A stretch of 64,000 nucleotides of DNA from Parafannyhessea umbonata (GTDB lineage: Bacteria; Actinomycetota; Coriobacteriia; Coriobacteriales; Atopobiaceae): assembly GCF_012844235.1 (NCBI RefSeq), contig NZ_JABAGR010000001.1, positions 124,001-188,000 of the forward strand, given 5' to 3'. The translations under genes were made by a program, and so were the position numbers. The notes under the pieces are model-generated. The model was not told the DNA's origin, did no database searches, and worked only from the letters and a program-made list of their open reading frames with translations. Positions 30,508 through 49,635 of this stretch are shown here, in pieces (position 1 is the first letter of the stretch; each line of letters opens with the position of its first letter).

Positions 30508-30517
30508 GGTGGCCTCC

Positions 30518-30644
30518 GTTTCTTTCATCCGGACTATAACCGTTGGTCCTGGACTTTGACCAGGTCAGCCGCTCTTTTTGTTGCGGCGCGCGGACTTGGG
30601 CCTTGCCCCTACCGCCAGTGGGGAATCTCACCCCGCCCTGAAAC
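30518..30644 (-). promoter_or_regulatory. FMN riboswitch (RFN element)
   Basis: On the minus strand the element runs from GTTTCA (30639-30644) through the conserved blocks GGGGTGAGATTCCCCA, CTGGCGGT, AAGTCCGCG, AAAGTCCAGGACC and ACGGTTATAGTCCGGATG to GAAAC (30518-30522). GTTTC and GAAAC close the base stem P1. The last base of P1 is also the first base of CGGAGG, the ribosome-binding site of ribU, which favours translational control. Confidence 0.93.
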
Positions 30645-30733
30645 TGACACGTTGACCATAGCACGTGACGCTGGCGCGTGGCGAGAAATCTTTTTACGTG
30701 TGCGTGGCGTGTGATCGGTGAAAAGCGGGCGAT

Positions 30734-42839: not shown

Positions 42840-43790
42840 TTATTCCGAGCCGATGGAGTACTCGCTATACAGGTTTGCCCTAAACGTAGGATCTGTAGCC
42901 GCGCGAACGATATCGTCTTGTCGCCCATCCTCGTTAAGACGTGCGACAAGCTTCGCAAGCCGCTCCTCGCCGACTGTCTGGCCTTCTTCGAGTCCGATCT
43001 TGCGACCCTCGTCCAAGCCCAGCTTGTGTCCCTCGTCGAGTCCCAGCTGGCGACCTTCCTCAAGGCCAAGCTTGCGGCCCTCTGCGAGACCGAGCTCGCG
43101 ACCCTTGTCGACATTGAGCTGATCCTTGATTGCCTGCACCATGAACTCAAGCCTCCATTTGCGGTTGTCGAGGACGTGCTCCACGGCCTCGTTGAGCCTT
43201 GAGGAGAGCTCTCCCGTGACCTTTCGAGAGGAAATGTAGTCAAGGAGCTCGTTAACCCGTGGGCCCTCCTGCGGTTCCGTGGGTGAAGTGGCTGCGAGAA
43301 AGATGGTGTGCACCCCGTCGTCTAGGCAGAGGTCTGGGTCGTCCTCGCAACGGCTTTGGAAAGAGTATACCCTGCGTCCCAGCCCAAATAAATCGAACCC
43401 GCAGATGAATATGACGTAGGAATCCCTGAGGGAGCGATAGGGGGCACCCCGGCTAATCTGGGAAAGGGCAAGCATTGCGTGATAGTAGCGCGAGCGCTGC
43501 GGAAGCTCGTGCGTGTCAGTTGCCTGCATCTCGACGCTGTAGACCGTTCCCCTGGCGTCACGGACGTAGACGTCAAGGCGTACGCCGTGTCCGTCTTCGG
43601 TTACGTCGATGGCATCCTGACGTCCAACGTACTCGATCTTCTCGATGTCAGTGGAGAGAATTGCCTCGAGCACCTCCTTGCAGAGGTCCTCATCAAGCAT
43701 CACCTTTCCGAAGACGAAGTCGTTCGCGATGGTGAGAGATTTCCAACGGACCTCGAGCTCCTGAACCAGATTTCTGACGTCCTGCTCCAT
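42840..43790 (-). CDS. Rpn-family PD-(D/E)XK nuclease / transposase-like protein
   Basis: About 316 residues. The PD-(D/E)XK core lies at about 50-165, with D73 (VRLDVYV) and E87-M-Q89 (YSVEMQ) as the likely metal-binding residues and the family phrase FKSLTIANDFVFGKVM-like at the start (WKSLTIANDFVFGKVM, 16-31). Residues 230-269 are five tandem octapeptides G-x-x-[LI]-G-L-x-E, then a degenerate sixth. I choose the ATG at 43790 (MEQDVRNL) because GAGAGGAG precedes it; the ATG at 43808 has no site. A LexA-type box lies 23 bp upstream. Rpn proteins are nucleases that promote RecA-independent recombination; no transposon ends are visible here. Confidence 0.8.
   Translation of the reverse strand: MEQDVRNLVQELEVRWKSLTIANDFVFGKVMLDEDLCKEVLEAILSTDIEKIEYVGRQDAIDVTEDGHGVRLDVYVRDARGTVYSVEMQATDTHELPQRSRYYHAMLALSQISRGAPYRSLRDSYVIFICGFDLFGLGRRVYSFQSRCEDDPDLCLDDGVHTIFLAATSPTEPQEGPRVNELLDYISSRKVTGELSSRLNEAVEHVLDNRKWRLEFMVQAIKDQLNVDKGRELGLAEGRKLGLEEGRQLGLDEGHKLGLDEGRKIGLEEGQTVGEERLAKLVARLNEDGRQDDIVRAATDPTFRANLYSEYSIGSE
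42974..43103 (-). repeat. 24-bp tandem repeats in the Rpn gene
   Basis: Five to six 24-base units encode G-x-x-[LI]-G-L-x-E. The nucleotide sequences differ at third positions, so the array is not freshly duplicated. Such repeats are common in this family's C-terminus and probably vary in number between strains. Confidence 0.75.
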
Positions 43791-43812
43791 GTGCGCGCTC
43801 CTCTCCATGAAT

Positions 43813-43840: not shown

Positions 43841-44046
43841 CCATGCCGTATACCCCTTTGCAACAGGGAATTTGCTGCAGATAAATGCAAGATAGTCAAG
43901 GCTCGGTCATTGCAGTGGGGACGTTTTCCGGCCAAATGTTTCCGCTTGGAGAAGCGGGGGGAGTTTTTCTCGACCTGCGTCCTACGCTGTGGCATATTGT
44001 CCATCAACGCATCCGTGTGGATGCGAATGTCTAAGGAGCGAAAGCG

Positions 44047-44148
44047 ATGACCAACGACTTCGTCGCATACAAGGACTTCACCGACCTCGCGGCCAGCCGC
44101 GTGGTACTTGGTGTCGTTTCCTCGCTCCTACTAGCGAGCGCGCGCTAG
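44047..44148 (+). CDS. Leader peptide of the leuA-ilvBNC operon (Val/Leu)
   Basis: A 33-residue open reading frame with an excellent AAGGAG site eight bases before the ATG. It begins MTNDFVAYKDFTDLAASR and then has VVLGVVSSLLLASAR, with four valines and four leucines close together just before the stop. Clusters of regulatory amino-acid codons before a terminator define ribosome-mediated attenuation. The peptide overlaps the first hairpin segments of the attenuator and ends 158 bp before leuA. Confidence 0.85.
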   Translation: MTNDFVAYKDFTDLAASRVVLGVVSSLLLASAR

Positions 44149-44223
44149 ACTGCACACAGGTTGCTGCTAGCGCGTAATGTTTGACCCGCCGGAACGTGGG
44201 TTTGGCGCTCGCATCCCTTTTTT
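44121..44223 (+). promoter_or_regulatory. Transcription attenuator of leuA-ilvBNC
   Basis: Four segments can pair in exclusive ways: segment 1 CTCGCT (44121-44126) with segment 2 AGCGAG (44133-44138); segment 2 CGCGCTAG (44141-44148) with segment 3 CTAGCGCG (44167-44174); segment 3 GCTAGCGC (44166-44173) with segment 4 GCGCTCGC (44205-44212) with one mismatch. Segment 4 is followed by ATCCC and six T's (44218-44223), a terminator. Stalling at the Val/Leu codons would free segment 2 to pair with 3 and prevent termination. Confidence 0.75.
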
Positions 44224-44306
44224 CACATAGCGCGGCGTCGGCTCTATCCGGTGGATGGTTGTTTGCGTATCTATTGACGTGCCACACCGTCCGAGAGGAG
44301 TCTTTC

Positions 44307-45842
44307 ATGACCCGCAAGATCAACATCTTCGACACCACATTGCGAGACGGCGAGCAGTCGCCTGGCGCATCGATGAACACCGAGGAGAAGCTCGTTATTG
44401 CCCAACAGCTGCTCAGGATGCACGTGGACGTAATCGAGGCCGGGTTCCCCATTTCGTCTCCCGGCGACTTCCGCTCTGTTCAGGAGATTGGGCGCCTGGC
44501 GGGTGACGATGCCGTGGTCGTCGGACTCACGCGAGCGGTGGACAAGGACATTGACCGCGCTGCCGAAGCCCTGAAGACCGCTAAGCGCCCCCGCATTCAC
44601 ACCGGTCTGGGCGTTTCTCCCCAGCATTTGCGCGAGAAGCTGCGCATTAGCGAGGACGAGTGCGTCGAGCGTGCGATTCACTGCGTCAAGTATGCGAAGA
44701 AGTACGTGGACGATGTCGAGTTCTACGCCGAGGACGCGGGCCGCGCGGACCAGAAGTTCCTGGAGCGCGTGATACAGGCGGCCGTAGACGCCGGCGCCAC
44801 CGTCGTGAACATTCCCGACACGACGGGATACCAGCTGCCTGACGACTTCGGTGCGCGAATCAAGGGCCTCGCGGACAACGTTCGCGGCATCGAGAACGTG
44901 ACCATCAGCGTGCACACCCACAACGACCTCGGCATGGCGACGGCGCTGGCGCTCGCCGGCGTGAAGAACGGTGCGACGCAGATCGAGTGCACGATTAACG
45001 GTCTTGGCGAGCGCGCAGGCAACACCGCCCTCGAAGAGGTCGTCATGGCCATAAAGATGCACGGCGACGAGCTCGACGCGCACACCGGCATCGTCACGCA
45101 GGAGCTCACGAGGGCGAGCCACCTCGTAAGCCGCATCACCGGCATGAACGTGCAGGCAAACAAGGCCATCGTCGGCTCCAACGCCTTCGCGCACTCCTCC
45201 GGGATCCATCAGGATGGCGTGCTGAAGGCGCGCGACACCTACGAGATTCTCGACCCCGCGGACGTTGGCGCGGCCGGTTCGGAAATCATCCTGAGCGCGC
45301 GCAGCGGTCACGCGGCATTGAAGCACCGTCTGGCGGAGCTGGGCTACACGTTCCCGGACGACGAGTTCGACGAGATCTATCAGCGCTTCCTGGAGATTGC
45401 GGACCAGAAGAAGGAAGTGTACGACGAGGACCTCGAGTCCATGGTGCAGGAGCGTCAGCGTGACGCATCCGCCATCTACACCCTCGATGCGCTCCAGGTC
45501 TCCTGCGGTGACCCGCTGGTCCCGACGGCAACGGCGACCATCAGCGACGAGTCGGGCGAGAAGCACGTGGTGTGCGCGACCGGCACCGGTCCCGTGGATG
45601 CCGCATACAAGGCGGTCGACCAGGTTGTCAGCGTCCACGGTGACCTGCAGGAGTTCTCTGTCAAGGCCGTCACGCGCGGCATCGACGCGCTGGGGGAGGT
45701 GACCGTACGCATCCAGGCCGAAGACGGTCGAGTATTCACCGGGCGAGGCTCTGACAACGACATCGTCGTATCTTCCGCGAAGGCATACGTTAACGCAATC
45801 AACCGCATGATTCAGACGCAGCGCTCGAACGAAGGAAAGTAG
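44307..45842 (+). CDS. leuA: 2-isopropylmalate synthase
   Basis: A 511-residue enzyme condensing acetyl-CoA with 2-oxoisovalerate, the first step to leucine. The catalytic TIM barrel has [15 protein letters not shown] (D9, R13) and the metal motif H203-T-H205-N-D ([10 protein letters not shown]). The C-terminal domain (about 380-511) is the leucine-sensing dimer domain. The ATG at 44307 follows GAGAGGAG. It is the first structural gene after the Val/Leu attenuator and its stop is one base from ilvB. A GGGCGAGAAGCAC element at 45554 encodes part of a loop in the regulatory domain (ESGEKHVV). Confidence 0.95.
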
Positions 45843-45843
45843 T

Positions 45844-47556
45844 ATGAGGCGAATCTCTGGCGCACAGGGCATTGTCGAGACCCTCGTCTCCGAGGGCGTC
45901 GACACCGTGTTTGGCTATCCGGGCGGGACCGTGCTCGAGCTCTTCGACGCTCTCTACGACGCCACGGACAAGATCAGGGTCATCGAGCCGACGCACGAGC
46001 AGCATGGCTGTCATTCGGCGGACGGCTACGCTCGCGCGACCGGAAAGACGGGCGTCGTGATCGCAACCTCTGGTCCGGGTGCAACAAACCTCGTGACGGG
46101 CATCGCCACGGCGTACCTGGACTCCGTACCGCTGGTGGCCATCACGGGCAATGTCTCGAACCAGATGATCGGGACGGACGCGTTCCAGGAGCTCGACATC
46201 ACGGGCGTCACGCTGCCTATCACGAAGCACAACTACTTCGTGCGCGATGCGAGCCGCCTGCAGGAGGTGCTGCGCGAGGCGTTCCGGCTTGCGAACTCCG
46301 GCAGGCGGGGACCCGTCCTCGTGGACATTCCCGCCGACGTCCAGCGCACGATGATTGACTGGCAGGATGCGGAGCCGCTTCCCGCCGTAGAGCCTCCCCG
46401 TGCGTCCAGAGATGAGCTTGAGGCTGCTGCCACAGCTATAAACAGGTCTCGCAGACCGTTCGTGTACTTTGGCGGCGGAGCCGTCTGGAGCGGCGCGTCG
46501 CAAGAGATCGTCGACTTCGCAAAGAAGATCGGAGCTCCCATAGGGTGCTCGCTCATGGGCGTCTCGGGTGTCCCGACGGACGCACCCGGCTTCCTGGGCA
46601 TGGAGGGCATGCACGGGCACTTTGCCAGTACGAGGGCGATGTACGAGTGCGACTGCCTGATCGCTCTGGGGGCCCGCTTCAACGACAGGTCTACGGGCGA
46701 CCGTACGAAGTTCGCTCCGAGTGGCAAGGTCGTGCACGTGGACGTCGACTCGTCCGAGTTCTCGAAGAGCCTGGAGGACCAGGTAGAGGTCAAGAGCGAC
46801 GTGCGTGCCTTCCTGGAGGACGTGGCCGAGCTCATAGAGCCCAATACCCACGAGGAGTGGGTGCGTCACGTGCGAGAGCTTCGTGCACAGGAGCGCGGCT
46901 ACGCGGACTACCGAGAAGGGCTGACCCCAAAGAACGTGATGGAGGCCATAGATGCGGCGCGTTCCGAGGACATGGCGGTCGTGACCGACGTTGGTCAGCA
47001 CCAGATGTGGGCGGCGCAGTATCTGCGCTTCGCGAAGCCGAGGACGTTCATCACCTCTGGCGGTCTGGGCACCATGGGCTTTGGCCTCGGGGCGGCGAAC
47101 GGGGTTGCGCTTGCGACTGGTAGGCCCTCCATCCTGGTGACTGGCGACGGGTCCTTCGCCATGGACATGGCGGAGATGATCACAGCGGCGGACAACCACA
47201 TACCCGTGTGCATCGTGCTATTGAATAACGGTGTGCTCGGCATGGTCCGTCAGATGCAGTCGCTCTTCAAGGAGCAGCGCTATTCCATGACCACCTTGAG
47301 GCATGGCGGCGCCGACTTCTGCGCCATTGCGCGTGGGATGGGGGCCGAGGCGACGAGGGTCCAGACGATCGAGGAGCTCTCCGAGGCCCTGGATCGGGCA
47401 CTTCTCGCCCAGGGCGACCCGACGACGGCAGGGCCGAAGCTCATTGAGGTGCCGATAGACAAGGACGAGTTCGTTACGCCCGTTTTGCGGATTGGGGCGT
47501 CCATGGACGAGCTGATCGTGAACATGGACGACGTTCGCGCCAGGATGGGGAGGTAG
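45844..47556 (+). CDS. ilvB: Acetolactate synthase large subunit 1
   Basis: A 570-residue thiamine diphosphate enzyme forming acetolactate (valine/leucine path) or acetohydroxybutyrate (isoleucine path). Motifs are FGYPGGTVLELFDAL, the catalytic glutamate in IEPTHEQHGCHSADGYARATG, SGPGATN and the ThDP-binding GDGSFAMDMAEMITAADNHIPVCIVLLNN. FAD/quaternary-structure regions are of the usual length. It lies one base after leuA and four bases before the small subunit ilvN, so the holoenzyme is encoded together. It is under the Val/Leu attenuator. A second large subunit occurs at 49636. Confidence 0.95.
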   Translation: MRRISGAQGIVETLVSEGVDTVFGYPGGTVLELFDALYDATDKIRVIEPTHEQHGCHSADGYARATGKTGVVIATSGPGATNLVTGIATAYLDSVPLVAITGNVSNQMIGTDAFQELDITGVTLPITKHNYFVRDASRLQEVLREAFRLANSGRRGPVLVDIPADVQRTMIDWQDAEPLPAVEPPRASRDELEAAATAINRSRRPFVYFGGGAVWSGASQEIVDFAKKIGAPIGCSLMGVSGVPTDAPGFLGMEGMHGHFASTRAMYECDCLIALGARFNDRSTGDRTKFAPSGKVVHVDVDSSEFSKSLEDQVEVKSDVRAFLEDVAELIEPNTHEEWVRHVRELRAQERGYADYREGLTPKNVMEAIDAARSEDMAVVTDVGQHQMWAAQYLRFAKPRTFITSGGLGTMGFGLGAANGVALATGRPSILVTGDGSFAMDMAEMITAADNHIPVCIVLLNNGVLGMVRQMQSLFKEQRYSMTTLRHGGADFCAIARGMGAEATRVQTIEELSEALDRALLAQGDPTTAGPKLIEVPIDKDEFVTPVLRIGASMDELIVNMDDVRARMGR

Positions 47557-47560
47557 GCGG

Positions 47561-48067
47561 ATGACCACGTACAACATCGCCATCATGGTCAGGAACGAGT
47601 ACGGCGTCCTCAATCGCGTTACCAGCATGTTCAGGCGCAGGCAGTTCAACATCCTGAGCCTGACGGTCTCCGAGACCGAGACGGAGCGGCTGAGCCGCAT
47701 TACGGTGCAGTACGAGGGCGAGGAGCGCTCGAAGCGCCAACTGGTGGCACAGCTTGCCAAGCTGCCCGACGTCATCTCGTGGAAGGAGTTCGACCCGGAG
47801 GACTCCATCAGCTGCGAGCTGCTGCTCATCAAGATGGCGAACCGCAACGAGACGAGATCGCAGGTGCTTGACGCTGCGGATGCGTTCAGGGCGAAGATCG
47901 TGGACTACACCCGCGACTCCATCGTCTTCAGGATTGCCGGGGGAAGCAGGCGCATCGACAACTTCATTGACCTGATGCGCGACTTCGAGATTCTCGAGGT
48001 GTGTCGCACGGGGGTCGTGAGCCTGGAGCGCGGCCCGAGCGTGATGAGGGACGTGGCGAGCGTCTAG
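47561..48067 (+). CDS. ilvN: Acetolactate synthase small (regulatory) subunit
   Basis: A 168-residue regulatory subunit with an N-terminal ACT domain (TYNIAIMVRNEYGVLNRVTSMFRRRQFNILSLTV-like, about 3-78) that binds valine for feedback inhibition, and a C-terminal ALS_ss_C domain. GGGGAGG precedes the ATG. It is the only small subunit in the window and may serve both large subunits. Confidence 0.93.
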   Translation: MTTYNIAIMVRNEYGVLNRVTSMFRRRQFNILSLTVSETETERLSRITVQYEGEERSKRQLVAQLAKLPDVISWKEFDPEDSISCELLLIKMANRNETRSQVLDAADAFRAKIVDYTRDSIVFRIAGGSRRIDNFIDLMRDFEILEVCRTGVVSLERGPSVMRDVASV

Positions 48068-48191: not shown

Positions 48192-49211
48192 ATGGCATTC
48201 AGGATGTTCCACGAGCAGGACTGCGACGTCAGCAAGCTCGACGGCAAGAAGGTCGCAATCATTGGCTACGGCTCTCAGGGTCACGCGCACGCGCTGAACC
48301 TGAAGGATTCCGGCGTGGACGTGAAGGTTGGTCTGCGCCCCGGTTCCAAGTCCAAGGCGAAGGCCGAGAAGCAGGGCATCGAGGTCGTCTCCAACGCCGA
48401 GGCCGCCAAGTGGGCCGACATCATCATGATCCTGATCAACGACGAGTATCAGGCCAAGATGTACAAGGAGGACATCGAGCCGAACCTCGCACCGGGCAAG
48501 ACCATCGCCTTCGCGCACGGCTTCAACATCCACTACGGCTGCATCACCGTCCGCCCGGACTGCAACGTGATCATGGTCGCTCCCAAGGCTCCCGGTCACA
48601 CCGTCCGCTCCACCTATCTCGAGGGCAAGGGCACCCCGTGCCTGGTCTGCGCCCACCAGGACGCCACCGGCGACGCGTTCGACCTCGCCCTGGCCTACGG
48701 TGCCGCCATCGGCGGAGCCCGCGCTGCGCTTCTCGAGACCGATTTCAGGACCGAGACCGAGACTGACCTCTTTGGCGAGCAGAACGTCCTCTGCGGCGGC
48801 GTGACCGACCTGATGGAGGCTGGCTTCAACACGCTGGTCGAGGCGGGCTACGATCCTCGCAACGCCTACTTCGAGTGCATCCACGAGATGAAGCTGATCG
48901 TCGACCTCATCTACGAGAGCGGCTTCGCCGGCATGCGCTCCTCCATCTCCAACACCGCTGAGTACGGCGACTACACCGCCGGCCCGCACGTGATCACCGA
49001 GGCCGCCAAGGAGGGCATGCGCTACAACCTGAAGCGCATCCAGAACGGCGAGTTCGCCAAGGAGTTCCTGCTTGACATGTCCGAGGAGAGCCACCAGGTC
49101 CACTTCAAGGCGATGCGTCGCCAGCAGGCCGAGACCCTGATGGAGGAGACCGGCAAGAAGATTCGCGCACTGTATGCGTGGAACGACGAGGACAAGCTCC
49201 TGAACAACTAG
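48192..49211 (+). CDS. ilvC: Ketol-acid reductoisomerase
   Basis: A 339-residue class I enzyme. The NADPH Rossmann motif is IIGYGSQGHAHALNL (about 23-37), followed by MVAPKAPGHTVRS and, in the helical knot domain, metal/substrate residues in TDLFGEQNVLCGG and AYFECIHEMKLIVDLIYE. It converts acetolactate/acetohydroxybutyrate to dihydroxy acids. It lies 124 bp after ilvN; the gap has a small hairpin (CTCCC/GGGAG near 48130) and could hold an internal promoter. A terminator follows at 49253. Confidence 0.96.
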   Translation: MAFRMFHEQDCDVSKLDGKKVAIIGYGSQGHAHALNLKDSGVDVKVGLRPGSKSKAKAEKQGIEVVSNAEAAKWADIIMILINDEYQAKMYKEDIEPNLAPGKTIAFAHGFNIHYGCITVRPDCNVIMVAPKAPGHTVRSTYLEGKGTPCLVCAHQDATGDAFDLALAYGAAIGGARAALLETDFRTETETDLFGEQNVLCGGVTDLMEAGFNTLVEAGYDPRNAYFECIHEMKLIVDLIYESGFAGMRSSISNTAEYGDYTAGPHVITEAAKEGMRYNLKRIQNGEFAKEFLLDMSEESHQVHFKAMRRQQAETLMEETGKKIRALYAWNDEDKLLNN

Positions 49212-49439: not shown

Positions 49440-49508
49440 ATGACAGAGGCAAGATCTAACGCTCGCGGACGCATGAACTTCTCCGCTGAAATCCTAGCTA
49501 TTATTTAG
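49440..49508 (+). CDS. Leader peptide of the ilvB2 operon (Ile)
   Basis: A 22-residue open reading frame with GGAGGAGG upstream of its ATG. It reads MTEARSNARGRMNFSAEILAII: three isoleucines and one leucine in the last six residues, two of them directly before the stop. Position and composition suit an isoleucine-sensing attenuation leader for the following ilvB2-ilvA operon. Confidence 0.8.
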   Translation: MTEARSNARGRMNFSAEILAII

Positions 49509-49578
49509 TTGCAGCCTCTTTTTACAAAGGGGGTTGCAACGCATATGGGTCTTCGCCAGGGGCGGGGACTCTTTTTTT
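49508..49578 (+). terminator. Attenuator hairpins of the ilvB2 operon
   Basis: The first hairpin pairs GTTGCA (49508-49513) with TGCAAC (49535-49540), extended by CCTCTTT with AAAGGGG. The second pairs GTCTTCGCC (49549-49557) with GGCGGGGAC (49561-49569), two G-T pairs, and is followed by T-C and seven T's, a strong intrinsic terminator. It ends 57 bases before ilvB2. Which upstream segment disrupts the terminator is not obvious by eye. Confidence 0.75.
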
Positions 49579-49635
49579 AGACGTCAGACAAGGCTCGAGG
49601 AAGCGACGCGACAGGGCAAAAAGGGAAGGGGACCG

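Follow-up and report, generated by a model that had tools for sequence, protein, structure and literature searches.

The candidate attenuator was found in a window of 64,000 nucleotides, the whole stretch of Parafannyhessea umbonata DNA that was analysed, where it lies between a divergent Rpn-family gene and leuA, which is followed by ilvB, ilvN and a putative ilvC gene (Table 1). Farther downstream, a second acetolactate synthase gene, putative ilvA, ilvD and then leuC, leuD and leuB were recognised, all named from the sequence only. The ORF-listing program gave a longer leuA ORF with a TTG start at 44181 (44181–45842), running through the attenuator structure; the true leuA start is the ATG at 44307 with its GAGAGGAG sequence, which is the better of the two. 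The 33-codon ORF with a ribosome-binding site, pointed out in the original prediction, is present upstream of leuA. Its Shine–Dalgarno sequence is retained as AAGGAGCG or AAGGAGCC in two relatives of the same genus, and the leader peptide is identical in genome G055 and has a 33-aa homologue in G054. Rfam covariance models (T-box and others) run over 43850–44330 gave no matches even at an E-value of 10. Elsewhere in the window, an FMN riboswitch was located at 30513–30649 on the reverse strand (108.9 bits).

Table 1. Features of the leuA leader region and its surroundings (positions within the window).
Feature	Position	Strand	Remarks
Rpn-family nuclease/putative transposase gene, divergent	42840–43808	-	FliH-like stretch in C-terminal part
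Shine–Dalgarno of leader ORF	44033–44038	+	AAGGAG; from sequence
Leader ORF	44047–44148	+	33 codons, 33 aa; MTNDFVAYKDFTDLAASRVVLGVVSSLLLASAR, peptide ending in VVLGVVSSLLLASAR before the stop
P0	44074–44118	+	hairpin within leader ORF; candidate RNA polymerase pause hairpin, putative role
Val codons	44101–44118	+	GTG GTA (44101–44106), GTC GTT (44113–44118)
1:2 stem	44121–44138	+	CTCGCT:AGCGAG, 44121–44126 with 44133–44138
Control Leu codons	44125–44133	+	CTC CTA CTA, 5–7 codons ahead of stop
Segment 2	44134–44148	+	GCGAGCGCGCGCTAG, overlapping leader stop codon
2:3 stop-codon hairpin (H1)	44141–44174	+	CGCGCTAG (44141–44148) with CTAGCGCG (44167–44174)
Stop codon of leader ORF	44146–44148	+	TAG
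Middle hairpin	44183–44202	+	GACCCGC/GTGGGTT, within 3:4 structure
Segment 4	44204–44213	+	GGCGCTCGCA; partners are segment 3, segment 2 or segment 5
T6 run	44218–44223	+	after segment 4
Segment 5	44232–44239	+	GCGGCGTC, complementary to segment 4 with one bulged C
Second terminator hairpin (T2)	44236–44253	+	weak in focal genome, −2.6 kcal/mol
leuA Shine–Dalgarno	44293–44300	+	GAGAGGAG; same in five nearest genomes
leuA	44307–45842	+	2-isopropylmalate synthase, ATG start 44307; sequence, family search
ilvB	45844–47556	+	family search
ilvN	47561–48067	+	family search
Next gene, read as ilvC	48192–49211	+	named from sequence alone
ilvB2 leader ORF	within 49440–49578		22 aa, MTEARSNARGRMNFSAEILAII followed by stop; Shine–Dalgarno GGAGGAGG
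ilvB2 leader stop-codon hairpin	49508–49540
ilvB2 leader candidate terminator hairpin	49547–49571		with T7

The leuA gene was searched for in 140 genomes of the family and matched in 119. Upstream regions were taken from 99 of the 102 genomes over the cut-off (G007, G062 and G102, with leuA matches at or near contig ends, were left out) and from G105 below it, giving 100, to which 80 named loci were added, three of them without the LeuA N-terminus. The anchored upstream regions amounted to 177, 124 of which were distinct. A leader ORF was called when it had a Shine–Dalgarno sequence, 12–60 codons and at least five Leu among the last 20 codons, a strict rule under which known leaders poorer in Leu codons go undetected (L011, L012). 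Such a Leu-rich ORF preceded leuA in 82 of the 124 distinct regions versus 4 of 372 dinucleotide shuffles, and one with at least two CTA codons in 52 regions versus none of the 372 shuffles. The leaders usually ended in LLLASAR, LLALNLLSLPSAR, LLGLELTCASAR or LLTLALLRADAR, with GCGCGCTAG as the commonest end (37/82), and the last Leu codon was placed five or six codons before the stop in 48 of the 82. A conserved Leu run was hence found in relatives, and Val/Ile codons reappear across the five nearest genomes. No clear leader was seen at the Adlercreutzia/Eggerthellaceae loci L078, L079, L081 and L083. A second leader type, its GLLLA or GLLLV end preceded by numerous Ile/Val codons, was noticed in L093, L105, L132 and L141 and possibly senses several branched-chain amino acids.

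Codon choice in the leaders was marked by the use of CTA. In 39 named leaders, hand-picked from those with a recognisable leader, CTA accounted for 87 of 240 Leu codons versus none of 1246 in their downstream leuA genes, each leader containing at least one; TTA and TTG together were not enriched (4/240 versus 20/1246). The focal leader uses CTA for two of its five Leu codons, and across 11 genes of the window the codon makes up 5 of 321. Four distinct leaders used GTA for 5 of their 16 Val codons and ATT for 5 of their 8 Ile codons (21/1840 and 140/1498, respectively, in leuA genes). Codon bias in the leaders was relaxed for other residues, too, GCT representing 55 of 252 Ala codons (118/2442 in leuA genes).

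The 2:3 and 3:4 pairings originally proposed were both present in the sequence and in the folds. H1 carries a short inner stem above the 2:3 pairing, the base of 3:4 is formed by AGCGC (44169–44173) with GCGCT (44205–44209), and the middle hairpin is kept in relatives despite a different sequence. A hairpin was also found at the matching place of P0 in all five nearest genomes (−15.4 to −20.1 kcal/mol). The classical role given to 1:2 did not stand: within segment 2 it occupies the 5' half, leaving the 3' half to 2:3, therefore both can coexist, and they fold together (44121–44180). By eye, 1:2 is kept only in L088, which has an identical peptide, and is absent from L092, L089 and L090. An additional pairing of 8 bp, 2:4, missing from the earlier list, is formed by GCGAGCGC (44134–44141) with GCGCTCGC (44205–44212) and is the one that appears at minimum energy as long as segment 2 is unoccupied. 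Segment 4 is invariant across all five nearest genomes. With the extra 2:4 stem, and with a 4:5 stem and a second terminator hairpin added in relatives, the locus departs from the complete classical four-segment set. Concerning the predicted T6 terminator, the T6 run exists, but a gap separates it from the 3:4 stem (GCGCUCGC-AUCCC-UUUUUU) and the run is not conserved in the nearest relatives, being reduced in L088 and missing in L092, L089 and L090. An AGG:CCU extension, present in one fold, would close the gap.

The region 44118–44225 was more stable than 197 of 200 dinucleotide shuffles (z = −2.40) and the whole 196-nt region than only 187 of 200 (z = −1.60); 3:4 alone showed no clear excess over shuffles. 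Single-sequence fold stability is weak evidence for the attenuator, because the GCGC repeats pair in shuffles too.

The co-evolution of the stop-codon hairpin was analysed in leaders hand-picked among the recognisable ones (41 for pairing permutations and 43 for stop-anchored pairs), with the stop-overlapping segment spanning the 14 nt up to the stop-codon end and the 6 nt beyond it. This segment paired with its own downstream RNA at an average of −21.52 kcal/mol versus −18.91 kcal/mol (SD 0.39) with that of other genomes (n = 41), and none of 5000 permutations was as low. For two control segments farther upstream in the same ORFs, no matched-pairing effect was observed (p = 0.90 and 0.11). 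Among the stop-anchored pairs (n = 43), which were picked by a duplex program biased towards pairing and counted without regard to relatedness, position −11 was G-C in 23, A-U in 10, C-G in 3, U-A in 1 and G-U in 5; position −10 was C-G in 28, U-A in 10, A-U in 1 and U-G in 1; and position +2 was U-A in 14, C-G in 10, G-C in 3 and U-G in 1. The covariation anticipated for the stems was thus encountered across genera for 2:3, but was nearly absent within clades because the stems there are almost invariant. Both-sided change affected 1 of 12 pairs in clade C (25 distinct rows) and no pair in the Collinsella-type leaders (10 rows), and all changes in the 4:5 stem (five rows) were one-sided. Matched arms were predicted to pair better than swapped ones for T2 (−10.0 versus −5.9 kcal/mol), the inner part of 2:3 (−4.5 versus −2.5 kcal/mol) and the middle hairpin (−10.1 versus −7.3 kcal/mol; n = 5 in each case).

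The effect of the ribosome position was modelled by masking the RNA so that the first free base lay 13 nt from the A-site codon, a general figure for bacterial ribosomes, and folding what remained as far as segment 4 reaches. In the focal RNA, the pairing of segment 4 was 0.83–0.95 while the ribosome occupied the Val codons, dropped to about 0.4 for CTC and the first CTA and was back at about 0.75 from the second CTA through the stop codon. The dip at the Leu codons was also seen in L088, L092, L089 and L090, and its score was matched by 0 of 200 shuffles for the focal RNA, 1 for L090, 8 for L089 and 19 for L092. Since segment 4 opens at Leu and not at Val codons in this model, the signal of the attenuator is likely leucine rather than valine. 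The sensing of branched-chain amino acids suggested in the original prediction is accordingly retained for leucine, whereas a modelled stall at Val/Ile codons leaves segment 4 sequestered. For many other clades, the terminator persists in the equilibrium fold wherever the ribosome stands; therefore, the model shows the switch mainly for the focal clade, where the exclusion of the terminator by the antiterminator according to ribosome position was found by folding only. In the Collinsella-type leaders, the 2:3 partner includes the 5' arm of the terminator (CACCCC), as in classical exclusion, and equilibrium folding favours the terminator at all ribosome positions.

A hairpin with a U-rich tail was identified in 44 of the 82 leader-bearing regions versus 20 of 82 shuffled ones; the other 38 had none by the rule used, and another terminator type or Rho is possible in leader-bearing regions. 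In clade C (L016–L040, L096, L100, L101, L107 and L183), a stop-codon hairpin of 12–13 bp was observed with an independent terminator immediately after it; the two do not overlap and fold together. A pseudoknot antiterminator considered in this clade (Thermophilibacter/Olsenella; loop-to-terminator pairing, matched versus swapped p = 0.005, 25 distinct rows) was dropped on general geometry, since zero to a few nucleotides do not make a feasible crossing loop for a first stem of 13 bp.

The 4:5 stretch folds alone in all five nearest genomes (−10.1 to −15.5 kcal/mol), with 97.8% of cells paired. Segment 5 is at the same time the 5' arm of T2, which is strong in L089 (−14.9 kcal/mol) and L090 (−16.4 kcal/mol), with T-runs behind. 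As a terminator of the focal genome T2 is not supported, 297 of 300 shuffles being at least as stable as its −2.6 kcal/mol. When T2 was included in the fold, L090 and L088 had their 4:5 peak at the Leu codons, and 4:5 won at every ribosome position in the focal RNA and L092, so the relay of 2:3, 3:4, 4:5 and 5:6 is best drawn in L090. The pairing of segment 4 with segment 2 and with a fifth segment suggests a his-like relay. It is conceivable, though we hold it with less than even confidence, that the leader works as a relay sensing leucine only, in which the invariant hub GGCGCTCGCA picks segment 2, 3 or 5 and only a stall at the Leu codons, neither an earlier stall nor completion of the peptide, permits transcription; the terminator would then have changed place from one related species to another, lying behind segment 4 in the focal genome and at T2 in L089 and L090, around a fixed hub.

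The leuA leader is very probably a ribosome-mediated transcription attenuator answering to leucine. Attenuation of the leuA operon by the ribosome, as originally predicted, is strongly supported by the enrichment of the ORF and of CTA among relatives, the codon bias, the conservation, the co-evolved stop hairpin and the switch position computed with the footprint model; from these we infer that the ORF is translated, that termination takes place at 3:4 (or T2) and that leucine is answered in vivo. With ample Leu-tRNA, the ribosome would reach the stop codon and cover segment 2, therefore the 2:3 hairpin could not form; segment 3 would pair with segment 4 and transcription would stop before leuA, presumably at T6 after segment 4 in the focal genome and also or instead at the later hairpin in relatives. 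With scarce Leu-tRNA, a ribosome stalled on CTC-CTA-CTA would hide the 5' half of segment 2 and leave the 3' half free. The 2:3 hairpin would then form, segment 4 would be released (and could pair with segment 5) and RNA polymerase would continue into leuA-ilvB-ilvN. Without a ribosome, or with an earlier stall, segment 2 would pair with segment 4 in a terminating form.

A wider sensor, in which shortage of valine (and isoleucine) also relieves termination, is possible but rather unlikely. The operon serves all three amino acids, the five nearest genomes retain Val/Ile-rich codons right before LLLASAR, and the over-representation of GTA and ATT in the four distinct leaders shows that the Val/Ile codons of the focal clade are skewed to rare ones, which leaves room for such a sensor. 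However, segment 4 stays paired in the focal RNA on a modelled Val/Ile stall, the relaxed bias extends to GCT of Ala, and most other clades have leaders rich in Leu alone. The control of leuA translation initiation by pairing of the Leu-codon run with the leuA Shine–Dalgarno sequence, without a terminator, as proposed for the actinobacterial LEU element, is improbable. That element, as far as the available part of its description goes, includes a Leu-run leader peptide before leuA (PMC1262725). Here, two motifs are invariant in the five nearest genomes, CTCCT in the leader and AGGAG in the Shine–Dalgarno sequence of leuA, and matched pairs reach −10.75 versus −10.06 kcal/mol for swapped ones (p = 0.013, n = 43), a small effect that ignores relatedness. 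Yet pyrimidine-rich Leu codons match any Shine–Dalgarno sequence by composition, about half of the regions possess a hairpin with a U-rich tail, and the leuA Shine–Dalgarno sequence lies ~70 nt beyond T6.

A small hydrophobic protein functioning in its own right as the product of the ORF, with hairpins unrelated to it, is very improbable. Although the C-terminal half is hydrophobic, the codon pattern between the focal leader and G054 speaks for nucleotide rather than protein constraint, because codons 4–11 all differ (seven of the eight change the residue) and codons 12–22 and 27–31 are identical at every base; the CTA bias and the fixed position before leuA also argue against this possibility. 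Hardly any credence is left for a chance meeting of a short ORF with GC-rich self-complementary repeats in a GC-rich genome: GCGCGC repeats do pair easily and the z-score of the whole region is low, but such an origin is contradicted by the ORF enrichment, CTA, the co-evolution and the footprint-shuffle counts.

Attenuators of leu operons are textbook knowledge in enteric bacteria, and the his attenuator acts through a relay of alternative stems. With the leu attenuator of Salmonella and E. coli, the focal leader shares alternative hairpins before the leu genes and Leu control codons in a leader peptide, including the rare CUA, a control codon of the Salmonella leu leader according to the accessible part of that report (PMC1183508). 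Unlike that attenuator, the focal leader has a segment 4 that may pair with any of three partners, a stop codon placed within the antiterminator stem and no conserved U-run. The same part of the source describes an extra hairpin between the pause hairpin and the terminator of the Salmonella and E. coli his attenuator (PMC1183508), a trait shared here. With the proposed 2:3/3:4/4:5/5:6 order, the focal leader would also resemble the his stem relay; the amino acid and the lineage are different, and the focal genome has only a weak final hairpin. The LEU element before leuA of other Actinobacteria, in the available part of its description, comprises a Leu-rich leader, pairing of the Leu run with the leuA Shine–Dalgarno sequence and a pseudoknot (Seliverstov et al. 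2005, PMC1262725). The leader ORF with a Leu run directly before leuA is common to both, whereas the focal leader has a stop-codon hairpin plus a terminator-like stem. The ilvB leader peptides with terminators in Corynebacterium, Mycobacterium and Streptomyces, as far as covered in that part of the source (PMC1262725), likewise combine Ile/Val/Leu codons with a terminator in a branched-chain operon, but their ORF overlaps the terminator hairpin, whereas the present one stops within the antiterminator, ahead of the terminator.

Within the literature searched on leaders, attenuators and leuA of Coriobacteria, Olsenella, Collinsella and Atopobium, the accessible parts of the sources (including PMC9413887) do not describe the element. 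While the principle of attenuation is known, this gut actinobacterial branch appears to have its own RNA layout. The data indicate that a gut actinobacterial lineage (Atopobiaceae and Collinsella-type relatives) reads ribosome position to control branched-chain synthesis, through a leader whose shortness hides it from gene callers. Leaders of this kind can be looked for by a simple signature, a stop-codon hairpin recurring together with CTA control codons. The terminator, which seems to have shifted between close species, offers a case in which attenuator evolution can be tested.

A second, Ile-rich attenuator candidate was noticed in the same cluster at 49440–49578, before ilvB2 (ATG 49636). 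The region 49470–49580 was more stable than all 200 shuffles (z = −4.10). Leaders ending in EILIII, EILAII and VVVLIIS were present before ilvB2 in G055, G054 and G006, respectively, with the same order of two hairpins; including that of the window, an ilvB2 leader was found at 4 of the 13 loci examined. The presence of this additional leader suggests separate sensors for separate branches.
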